In this document: positions 1 to 6,888 of the stretch, piece by piece
Layout: every line of letters begins with the position of its first letter
How positions within the stretch are numbered: the first letter of the stretch is position 1
Source of the DNA: Alphaproteobacteria bacterium
GTDB taxonomy: Bacteria > Pseudomonadota > Alphaproteobacteria > Sphingomonadales > Sphingomonadaceae
Direction: 5' to 3'
Assembly: GCA_028293055.1 (NCBI GenBank)
Contig: JAQGLD010000281.1
Location: 1-11,021 of the forward strand
Length of the DNA: 11,021 nt
Notes under the pieces: generated by a model
Databases searched by the model: none
Told to the model about the DNA's origin: nothing
The model's input: the letters and a program-made list of their open reading frames with translations, nothing else
Translations under genes and position numbers: made by a program

Positions 1-1518
1 GATACGGTTCTTCGAGCGCTCCGGCACCCAGCGCGTCTCGTCGATCGCGGACAGGGCGGTGCTGCGAAGGGTCTTAAGCCCCTCCCCTCCAGGAGAGAGG
101 CTGGGGTGGGGCAGTGTCCCATCCACCCGCGTCTCCGCGGACTCCCCCACCCCTTCGCGCTGCTGCGCAGCCCTCTTCCCCTCCCCTGAAGGGGAGGGGT
201 TGGTTTGGCGGTCCATCGGGATGAACCATTGCGGGGTGCAACGGAAGATGACCTTGGCCTTGGACCGCCAGCTGTGCGGATAGGAGTGCTTGAAGTCCGC
301 CGACGCGGCGAAGAGCGCGCCGACCTCGCGCAAATTCTCGCAGATCGGTCCGTCCGGCGCGTTGAACTTCGCGTTGATCACGCTGCCTTGGCCGCCGAGC
401 CACAGCCAGTCGCTGCGATACTTGCCGTCGCCCTCGACCGCGAAGACCGGCTCGATACCATAGGCCTTGCACAGCAGGAAATCATCCTCGCCATGGTCCG
501 GAGACATGTGGACGAGGCCGGTACCGGCGTCGGTGGTGACGAACTCGCCCGGCAGGAACGGGCGGGCTTTGGCGAAAAAGCCCCCGAGATGGTGCATTGG
601 ATGGCGAGCGATAGTTCCAGCGAGGTCCGAACCCCTCACCCGCAACGGGTCATTCTCGCGCAAGCGGGAATGACGGGCCAAGGCGGTGTCAGCCAGGTCT
701 TCGGCAACAAGAAGGCGTTTTCCCCCTGCCTCGACGACCAGATACTCAATATCAGGCCCATAGGCCAAAGCCTGATTGACCGGGATCGTCCACGGAGTCG
801 TCGTCCAGATCACCGCATAGGCGCCGACCAGCTCCGGGATCGGGCTCTCTACGATCTCGAAGCCGACATCGATCTGGGTGGAGACGATCTCCTCATATTC
901 GACCTCGGCCTCGGCGAGCGCGGTCTTCTCGACCGGGGACCACATTACCGGCTTGGCGCCGCGATAGAGCTGACCGCTCTCGGCGAAGCGGAGCAATTCC
1001 TCGACGATCTTGGCCTCGGCCTCGAACTTCATCGTGAGGTAGGGGTCGTCCCACTCGCCCATCACGCCGAGGCGCTGGAACTGCTCGGACTGAACTTTGA
1101 CCCAATGCTCTGCATAGGCGCGGCATTCGGCGCGGAACTCGCGTGGCGGGACCTGGTCCTTGTCGAGTTTCTTCTTGCGATATTGCTCCTCGACCTTCCA
1201 CTCGATCGGCAAACCGTGGCAGTCCCAGCCGGGGACGTAGGGCGCATCCTTGCCAAGCAGGGACTGCGATCGAACGACGATGTCCTTGAGGACCTTGTTC
1301 ATCGCATGGCCCATATGGATGTCGCCATTGGCGTAAGGCGGGCCGTCGTGGAGGATGAAGCGGGTGCGTCCGGAACGCGCTTCGCGCAGCCTCTGGTAGA
1401 GCTGCTCGGACGCCCAGCGGGCGAGGATAGCCGGCTCCTTGGTCGCAAGGCCGGCTTTCATCGGGAAGTCGGTCTTCGGAAGGAAGACCGTGTCGCGGTA
1501 ATCTGGCTTTTCGGACAT
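1..1518 (-). CDS. ileS: Isoleucyl-tRNA synthetase (N-terminal 506 codons, cut by window edge)
   Basis: IleRS, a cytoplasmic class I enzyme, charges tRNA-Ile and edits misactivated valine. Seen in the sequence: the ATG at 1518-1516 opens a stop-free frame to base 1, read codon by codon. The class I HIGH signature is HMGH at residues 68-71, preceded by HDGPPYANGDI. The catalytic motif PGWDCHGLPIE follows. The CP1 editing domain carries WTTTPWTIP (238-246) and TGLVHMSPDHGEDD (about 333-346). PQWFIPMD ends at residue 436, and AIDETRWVPE follows downstream. The KMSKS motif and zinc-binding tail lie outside the window. Two oddities are described separately: a roughly 40-residue in-frame insert at about 439-481, where relatives have a short loop between MD and LR, and a repeat-like stretch at residues 282-294. 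No clear Shine-Dalgarno precedes the ATG. The gene starts 35 bp after the upstream GDPD-like stop, so it probably shares that transcript. ribF followed by ileS is a common bacterial order, often continuing to lspA. Confidence 0.97.
   Translation of the reverse strand, partial: MSEKPDYRDTVFLPKTDFPMKAGLATKEPAILARWASEQLYQRLREARSGRTRFILHDGPPYANGDIHMGHAMNKVLKDIVVRSQSLLGKDAPYVPGWDCHGLPIEWKVEEQYRKKKLDKDQVPPREFRAECRAYAEHWVKVQSEQFQRLGVMGEWDDPYLTMKFEAEAKIVEELLRFAESGQLYRGAKPVMWSPVEKTALAEAEVEYEEIVSTQIDVGFEIVESPIPELVGAYAVIWTTTPWTIPVNQALAYGPDIEYLVVEAGGKRLLVAEDLADTALARHSRLRENDPLRVRGSDLAGTIARHPMHHLGGFFAKARPFLPGEFVTTDAGTGLVHMSPDHGEDDFLLCKAYGIEPVFAVEGDGKYRSDWLWLGGQGSVINAKFNAPDGPICENLREVGALFAASADFKHSYPHSWRSKAKVIFRCTPQWFIPMDRQTNPSPSGEGKRAAQQREGVGESAETRVDGTLPHPSLSPGGEGLKTLRSTALSAIDETRWVPERSKNRI
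79..199. repeat. Structured palindromic repeat inserted in frame in ileS (family A, copy 1)
   Basis: The 121-bp element is bounded by the 10-mer CCCCTCCCCT (79-88) and its exact reverse complement (190-199). A second copy of the 10-mer at 178-187 forms a 10-bp hairpin with 190-199 around a 2-base loop. Inside, 103-111 pairs perfectly with 145-153 over 9 bp, enclosing a 5-bp hairpin (127-131/136-140). GCTGC at 159-163 pairs with 167-171. On the ileS strand there is no stop: the element and its margins encode Pro/Ser/Gly/Glu/Arg-rich residues at about 439-481, including TNPSPSGEG and HPSLSPGGEG, the mirrored translations of the two ends. No target-site duplication is apparent. The architecture resembles the intergenic element at 4814-4969. 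That it is an interspersed repeat is inferred from this resemblance and from its palindromic structure. Confidence 0.85.
638..674. repeat. Short REP-like palindrome pair inside the ileS editing domain (family B, copy 1)
   Basis: Two adjoining palindromes are visible. ACCCG (638-642) pairs with CGGGT (646-650). Bases 649-659 pair with 664-674 around a GCAA loop, over 11 positions with a single mismatch. The core GTCATTCTCGC...GCGGGAATGAC matches the type of extragenic palindrome, GTCATTCCCGC-loop-GCGGGAAT, that is widespread in proteobacteria, and it resembles the intergenic copy at 6816-6837. It is read in frame as IleRS residues 282-294 (RHSRLRENDP...), between VAEDLADTALA and RGSDLAGT. As far as I can judge from remembered orthologues, this segment is not longer than usual, so it may be a replacement, an old domesticated copy, or a coincidence. 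Confidence 0.55.
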
Positions 1519-4767: not shown

Positions 4768-4813
4768 GCTGTTTCTATGACGGGCAGGCGCGAGGTTGGG
4801 AAGGGATAGCAAA

Positions 4814-4969
4814 TCCTCCCCTGCATTTGCAGGGGAGGGGGACCGCGCGCAACGCGGTGGAGGGGCGGGCGCGGAGGGCCCATCTTTCGACCGACCTGAT
4901 GAACTCGCTTCGCTCGACCCCCTCGACCACCCTGCGGGTGGTCCCCCCCACTCGAAATCGAGGGGAGGA
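4814..4969. repeat. Composite palindromic repeat between methyltransferase gene and thyA (family A, copy 2)
   Basis: This 156-bp element has perfect 9-bp terminal inverted repeats: TCCTCCCCT at 4814-4822 and its complement at 4961-4969. Four hairpins lie in series: 4815-4825/4828-4838 (11 bp, 2-base loop), 4842-4847/4853-4858 (6 bp), 4925-4932/4936-4943 (8 bp, 3-base loop) and 4951-4955/4958-4962 (5 bp, extendable past an A-G mismatch). The CTCCCCT...AGGGGAG ends and the hairpin-chain layout match the copy inside ileS. It starts 9 bp after the methyltransferase stop, so in minus-strand RNA it forms the 3' trailer of that gene and the leader of thyA. It could act as a terminator, a stability element or a processing site; none of these is shown by the sequence alone. 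Confidence 0.8.
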
Positions 4970-4978
4970 GTTTGCGCA

Positions 4979-6800: not shown

Positions 6801-6815
6801 GTTGAATTCCTATTC

Positions 6816-6888
6816 GTCATCCCGGCGAAAGCCGGGACCTCGTTGTGAAACGCCGTGCCGCTCGCTGGATCCCGGCCTTCGCCGCGAT
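6816..6888. repeat. REP-like doublet between mrcA and prfB (family B, copy 2)
   Basis: There are two palindromes about 30 bp apart. TCCCGGC (6820-6826) pairs with GCCGGGA (6831-6837) around GAAA. ATCcCGGC (6869-6876) pairs with GCCGcGAT (6881-6888) around CTTC, with one mismatch. The GTCATCCCGGCGAAAGCCGG unit resembles the palindrome inside ileS at 649-674 and the CATTCCCGC-type extragenic palindromes common in proteobacteria. In minus-strand RNA it lies in the leader of prfB, ending just before the AGGA ribosome site. Confidence 0.7.

Follow-up and report, generated by a model that had tools for sequence, protein, structure and literature searches.

Unrelated families of palindromic repeats occupy the same loop of isoleucyl-tRNA synthetase in sphingomonads

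Ogata et al. reportedly described, in 2000 and 2002, several families of palindromic elements in conserved genes of Rickettsia, and REPIN/RAYT systems are known in which non-autonomous doublets of inverted palindromes occur. The Rickettsia palindromic elements (RPEs) are presented as in-frame insertions of ∼150 bp (PMC10969869). For REPs, the text of Di Nocera, De Gregorio and Rocco (2013) describes repeats that are often dimers of inverted units and mostly intergenic, in species that include members of the order studied here, and it also reports intragenic GTAG and CGTC REPs, including copies in uvrA and, for S. alaskensis and E. litoralis, in tRNA synthetases (PMC3733652). In that text, a CGTC-REP is defined by a CGTC tag, an 8–9 bp stem opening with A/T pairs and a 4–5 nt loop, and different REPs at about the same site are described for one case, recB of two Xanthomonas, with different sites otherwise (PMC3733652). 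Perfect inverted repeats are also described within mitochondrial protein genes of Nematomorpha (PMC6649704). As a class of event, translated intragenic palindromes are therefore already known from RPEs and intragenic REPs, and the remark in our initial annotation that no equivalent was known in sphingomonads is corrected by the 2013 report. What is new at the locus described here is that its main family of elements (F1) fits neither REP definition, and that fixed protein loops are repeatedly colonised by unrelated families. In the literature searched, which took in a minority of subscription papers, palindromes in sphingomonad isoleucyl-tRNA synthetase genes (ileS) were not found beyond Di Nocera et al., whose tRNA synthetases, as described in the main text, may include ileS; neither F1 within ileS nor a loop occupied in succession by unrelated families was found in the same literature.

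The stretch of DNA that was analysed (the window; 11,021 bases) is one entire contig, C370, from the metagenome-assembled genome of a sphingomonad (G000), which comprises 3.6 Mb in 644 contigs and is 82% complete. Positions 1–1518, on the reverse strand, encode the first 506 residues of isoleucyl-tRNA synthetase (IleRS), truncated by the contig end (Pfam PF00133, E 1.4e-63), and the closest solved chains to the product are IleRS. The reading ends at the contig edge, ∼70 bases beyond a 47-codon in-frame insert (site A; positions 70–210, reverse strand, residues 437–483). Contig C197 of the same genome is probably the continuation of this gene, and a second, uninterrupted ileS was not seen in G000 (at 82% completeness), where the other matches were this likely continuation and distant synthetases of ∼30% identity. 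Named isolate genomes carry the same type of ileS insert, and therefore the site A insert is not an assembly artefact; the sequencing artefact envisaged in the initial annotation does not apply either. Positions 2–88 of C197 overlap the window start with 93% protein identity, which places an assembly break near the palindrome. Another genome of the genus, G015, has the full gene on contig C3 and, at the end of contig C63 (positions 2–604; L071), an additional ileS fragment covering the N-terminal part; this fragment is either an extra copy or contamination.

The insert lies between QWFIPMD and LRSTAL, with LRSTALSAIDETRWVP following it. The initial annotation had described a palindrome read in frame, with 47 residues between MD and LR and conserved sequence on either side, and all of this was borne out: no stop interrupts positions 1–1518, the element at 79–199 falls inside this reading, and IleRS sequence resumes on both sides. 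Inverted-repeat and pattern searches resolve the element as a 121-bp REP-like doublet of family F1, built from two inverted palindromes of ∼22 bp with sub-terminal GGGGTGGGG / CCCCACCCC. The first palindrome (79–100) is imperfect and the second (178–199) reads CCCCTCCCCT GA AGGGGAGGGG; as inverted arms, these 22-nt segments are 86% complementary. With up to three mismatches, the pattern CCCCTCCCCTNNAGGNGAGRGG matched both arms on both strands, giving four matches, where 200 dinucleotide shuffles gave 0.01 on average. Each arm is therefore itself palindromic. The 141 nt of the insert fold with an energy of −90.9 kcal/mol (z −7.1 against dinucleotide shuffles). An Rfam 15 scan of the window gave nothing above any family's gathering score, a PADLOC scan of IleRS gave no match, and none of the 26 candidates from a protein search restricted to the insert (residues 436–486) reached E ≤ 0.01.

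The palindromes described here resemble the REPs of Di Nocera et al. in that some of them lie inside genes, including uvrA and tRNA synthetases (PMC3733652). Unlike the REPs defined in that text, the site A element lacks both the CGTC and the GTAG tag, and its stem does not start with AT. Its palindrome is CCCCTCCCCTNNAGGGGAGGGG, in which the CCTC letters sit within the paired stem, leaving no unpaired CGTC (or TGTC/CCTC) tag; the stem has C/T on one side and opens with C–G pairs, and GTAG is absent from the ends of the site A palindromes. The string 'CCCTC' does not occur in the main text of PMC3733652, whose consensus sequences are in figures. Of the features expected of a MITE, inverted ends are present, and the flanks of filled and empty sites are, by eye, too diverged for a target-site duplication to be read. 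Nematomorpha coding palindromes, as described, are perfect mitochondrial repeats (PMC6649704); the elements here, in contrast, are dispersed repeats entering a shared loop.

Beyond what had been annotated initially, ileS contains a second in-frame palindrome (site B; 649–675, reverse strand), a single CGTC-type REP in the part encoding the editing domain (approximately residues 282–290, HSRLREND). Its pattern match at 649–674 has one mismatch to the palindromic pattern and no counterpart in 200 shuffles. The coding strand reads CGTC ATTCCCGC TTGC GCGAGAAT, with seven of the eight stem positions pairing, and the element thus has the CGTC tag, the 8-bp stem beginning AT and the 4-nt loop of the published CGTC-1 type, with one stem position unpaired. 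A fuller doublet of CGTC-1 type lies near the same place in ileS of G015. Elsewhere in the window, a palindromic doublet (CCTCCCCTGCATTTGCAGGGGAGG ... CGAAATCGAGGGGAGG; F6-like by eye) adjoins the start of thyA at 4811–4972, and a lone CGTC-type REP (CGTCATCCCGGCGAAAGCCGGGACC) lies immediately upstream of the prfB start at 6815–6839. On another contig of G000, glyS carries a further in-frame palindrome (CCCCGGCGGAGGCCGGGG ... CCCCGGCCTCCGCCGGGG; L297, C362).

We examined the families at site A for dispersal in 26 genomes of the genus and found that F1, F3 and F4 are dispersed repeats. The F1 pattern gave 1–211 sites per genome, compared with 0–2 for a reversed-pattern control; F4 gave 0–240 matches, on both strands, and F3 0–87, each with controls of 0–2. 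In genomes with F4 at site A, F4 matches numbered 44 (G001), 60 (G007) and 101 (G008), and where F3 occupies site A, F3 matches numbered 32 (G002), 11 (G005) and 12 (G013). The genome of the window contains partial relatives of the 79–199 doublet and has 30 F1 sites compared with one in the control, together with no F4 match and one F3 match. Further copies had been proposed as a check of the element, and its type is indeed present elsewhere in its own genome.

Copies of F1 were presumably moved by an enzyme, and a known REP/RAYT (REPIN) system is one candidate. The doublets of inverted palindromes do resemble REPINs, and 11 of the 26 genus genomes have Y1 (RAYT-type) transposases, as do 5 of 14 controls. 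However, no RAYT flanking F1 was found: F1 adjoined none of 19 Y1_Tnp places (up to ∼1.5 kb on each side), the nearest F1 to any Y1 gene being one palindrome ∼900 nt off (L158), and some Y1 genes stand beside other palindromes. In addition, four genomes with 50–79 F1 sites (G002, G010, G021 and G025) have no Y1 match, and F1 lacks the GTAG tag. With Y1 genes devoid of flanking F1 and F1-rich genomes devoid of Y1, a RAYT is disfavoured as the F1 mover, and we consider mobilisation by such a system very unlikely. The Y1 genes that lie between other palindromes are in L156, L160 and L167 (TTTGTCCG..CGGACAAA; GGGACAGTTAC..GTAACTGTCCC; GGTGACAGTCAC).

Outside the family of the window, site A is a short loop in nearly all of the genes read. 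In solved IleRS nothing separates the two flanks of the site, which meet near residue 414/415 in 8c9e, and in 1ffy the alignment extends to residue 417; in the known architecture of IleRS, this is the point at which the chain passes from the editing domain back into the catalytic domain. An insert-free probe across the site matched in 108 of 115 genomes sampled from the class, and outside the family of the window the site-spanning matches had at most ∼17 added residues (G040); the matches in G033 and G069 start at or after site A and are uninformative. Thirty loci were fetched, these being the best-scoring and hence biased to short loops, and 22 of them were readable by script: the loop has 3 residues in 20 of the 21 readable genomes outside the family and 9 in the other (L216), while L207, from the same family as the window, has 8. 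The figure of about 8 residues initially given for other alphaproteobacteria should therefore be nearer 3. Large expansion of the loop is confined to the family of the window within the genomes sampled.

Within sphingomonads, ileS was read in 24 of the 26 genus genomes; G017 had no ileS match (its best match, E 5.5e-20, is a distant synthetase) and in G020 (68% complete) the gene is frame-broken. To these were added named records, taken as the 80 best tblastn-scoring ileS loci, a sample in which frame-broken copies may be under-represented. With G012 (cut by a contig end), L077 (unparsed, its insert equal to that of G019) and the duplicates L075 and L079 left out, 100 distinct inserts were compared. 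With family motifs defined after viewing the inserts and 8 of the 100 labels assigned by hand, these comprised 34 F1 (CCCTCTCCC / CCTCCCC / CCTCCCGC types), 3 F2 (CGTC-like), 6 F3 (TCGACTTCGCTCG type), 7 F4 (TGAGCCTGTCGAA type), 8 minimal loops of 5–7 residues and 42 others; one insert labelled F1 (G016) fits the later-defined family F6. The eight minimal loops answer a question raised by the initial annotation, in that not all sphingomonads are filled at this site. A recognised palindrome motif was present in 50 of the 100 genes and a strong fold in 45: among the 90 inserts of at least 60 nt, 45 had z < −3 and 42 had z < −4, compared with 2 and 0, respectively, of 180 random equal-length windows elsewhere in the same ileS genes. 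All 45 bear a family label, and the labelled inserts short of z < −3 were L116, G008, L146, G009 and L128. Therefore, at least four unrelated palindrome families occupy the same IleRS loop in relatives, which goes beyond the initial annotation.

Occupancy of the loop turns over on the IleRS tree. This was a quick maximum-likelihood tree computed from 879 IleRS columns with the insert removed (the 24 of 97 inner branches with support under 80 are drawn open), and on it the six labels require at least 37 changes over 100 rows, and palindromic versus non-palindromic states at least 26. Close relatives differ in state, with F1 in L081 and F2 in L080, F1 in G025 and F3 in G002, and F4 in L121 and L127 beside a minimal loop in L139. 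By eye, two kinds of palindrome adjoin at single loci (F3 and F1 in L145, F3 and F4 in L146, and another palindrome with F1 in L144 and L108), L098 and L110 resemble decayed F1 remnants, and L128 resembles a decayed F4. A non-palindromic loop with the motif W-x-x-E-G-G occupies site A in 15 of the 100 genes, and L144 has this motif together with an F1 doublet; the W-x-x-E-G-G loop is absent from the alphaproteobacterial loops read outside the family.

Other conserved genes are affected in the same way. In the closed genome G002, we examined the surroundings of the F1 and F3 sites listed, in 57 stretches that contain 77 clusters, calling frame from the codon bias of the flanks. Among these listed-site clusters, 6 of 77 lie in one open frame on both sides; of the remainder, 36 have a side that is not clearly coding, 22 have same-strand flanks in different frames, 6 are convergent, 5 are divergent, 1 is in the same frame with a stop and 1 is at an edge. 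By Pfam, the six open-frame genes are ileS, glyS, a RarA/MgsA-type AAA ATPase, an MtaB/MiaB-type radical SAM enzyme, uvrA and putA, the RarA/MgsA and MtaB/MiaB designations being our own assumption beyond Pfam. Among 12 F1 clusters in G000, one is in frame and open (ileS site A), 7 have a side that is not clearly coding, 2 are convergent, 1 is in the same frame with a stop and 1 is at an edge. Individual loci of G002 (L251, L258, L278 and L283) show in-frame palindromes in glyS (at two places), the rarA-type ATPase, the mtaB-type enzyme and putA, and in G017 an F1 palindrome lies, by eye, within an apparent valyl-tRNA synthetase frame (L070, ∼2099–2116).

The genes glyS and uvrA were chosen for comparison across loci because they were found in G002, which is itself counted among the loci. 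At the second glyS site, z was below −3 in 13 of the 16 loci read by script (F1 in 6, F6 in 4, F3 in 2 and one unlabelled), these 16 being drawn from 25 loci of which four others have no long insert and five were unread. For uvrA, 21 of 22 loci were read, with a family motif in 16 (F1 in 10, F6 in 3 and F4 in 3) and z < −3 in 10. One loop each of GlyS-β and UvrA thus behaves like IleRS site A, an extension that the initial annotation did not contain. The parallel that it drew with Rickettsia was apt, since several conserved genes are hit in frame (ileS, glyS, uvrA, the rarA-type and mtaB-type genes and putA). As with the in-frame RPEs (PMC10969869), palindromes of several families are found here within conserved alphaproteobacterial genes without breaking the frame. 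The elements differ from RPEs in their sphingomonad host and in that several unrelated families occupy one loop of one protein across many species.

The convergence of unrelated families on one position, with two kinds adjoining in L145, L146, L144 and L108, could also mean that position is set by DNA and not by protein tolerance, either because the sites are targets of one mobilising enzyme or because palindromes attract palindromes. Yet the flanking DNA differs, by eye, among the ileS, glyS and uvrA sites, and 71 of the 77 G002 clusters examined among the listed sites were not found in one open frame. We therefore regard DNA targeting as fairly unlikely and favour tolerance by the protein.

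Since the elements are read in frame, we asked how often an F1 doublet is translatable. Among 42 distinct dispersed F1 doublets, length is divisible by 3 in 21, and 53% of frames are open (37% with 6-nt ends). Open frames average 3.17 of 6 per doublet, compared with 3.28 in the doublets' own shuffles; an unusual freedom of F1 doublets from stops is therefore not supported, and their openness is due to base composition. In contrast, all 80 named ileS loci are open across site A (79 by script and L077 by reading). Set against the dispersed doublets, half of which have a length that is not a multiple of 3 and about half of whose frames contain a stop, this uniform openness points to selection for translation, a caveat being that the loci were picked by protein score. 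It also bears on whether the insert is present in the gene and missing from the protein, either because it is cut out of the mRNA or because ribosomes bypass it. Strong mRNA stems (z −7.1) would suit RNase cutting or a ribosomal hop, but removal or bypass needs neither an open frame nor a length divisible by three, and yet the frame is open in 80 of 80 named ileS loci, unlike in the 42 dispersed doublets. Such removal is thus extremely improbable, and the mRNA presumably stays whole, with the peptide retained in the enzyme.

Comparison of related genes shows relaxed change in most of the palindromic inserts compared. In five palindromic pairs, which have few changes each, pN/pS was 0.38–0.80 in the insert and 0.16–0.34 elsewhere in the gene; the sixth pair (L121/L127) has one silent change and no amino-acid change in the insert. 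Among non-palindromic pairs, L113/L136 had a pN/pS of 0.2 and L153/L143 of 0.7 (relaxed), and three pairs with the W-x-x-E-G-G loop had 0–0.11, below the rest of the gene. These last pairs speak for an insert that is kept by selection, as a working part of IleRS or as a regulatory hairpin, and is not a tolerated guest: in all three pairs compared, the W-x-x-E-G-G segment (15 of 100 genes) is more conserved than the remainder of ileS, so the loop can carry function, and the palindromic insert of L121/L127 is unchanged in amino acids. Against such a function, the families share no common peptide, F1 is read, by eye, in different frames, five of the six palindromic pairs change fast, and 8 of the 100 genes do without any insert. 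We consider selected function of the palindromic inserts quite improbable, and a near-neutral effect of a tolerated segment is the more plausible reading. An AlphaFold2 model of a Rhizorhabdus IleRS (L076; mean pLDDT 73, alignment of 40) places insert residues 459–499 at pLDDT < 50, ahead of a helix at 503–513, and the conserved stretch preceding the insert (428–452) is likewise below 50. This weak model fits disorder of the insert, as a compatible result and not a demonstration.

Taken together, we think it highly likely that REP-like doublets disperse through these genomes and that copies which enter a permissive loop in frame persist there, to be translated as a tolerated segment. The site A element would then be a copy of a dispersed, non-autonomous F1 doublet inserted in frame into the IleRS loop, and would be read as a 47-residue segment rich in Pro, Ser, Gly and Glu, probably disordered and tolerated by the enzyme. 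The loop itself may act as a permissive landing site that families enter repeatedly, sometimes side by side, and in which they then decay. As a more tentative and rather unlikely extension, the IleRS, GlyS-β and UvrA loops may be serial docking sites that make new disordered segments, some of them later constrained, with the W-x-x-E-G-G loop as an end state. Rickettsia, the genus from which palindromes within coding sequence are most familiar, is an obligate parasite and difficult to work with genetically, whereas those described here are in culturable bacteria, and the shared site lies in an essential enzyme that is filled, empty, mixed or apparently decayed among close relatives. Culturable carriers include Sphingomonas metalli (L094), S. 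pokkalii (L114), S. naasensis (L124) and Allosphingosinicella vermicomposti (L079). Because these states occur in culturable relatives, two old questions become directly testable: whether such inserts are functionally neutral or contribute to the enzyme, and whether their position is determined by what the protein tolerates or by targeting of the DNA.
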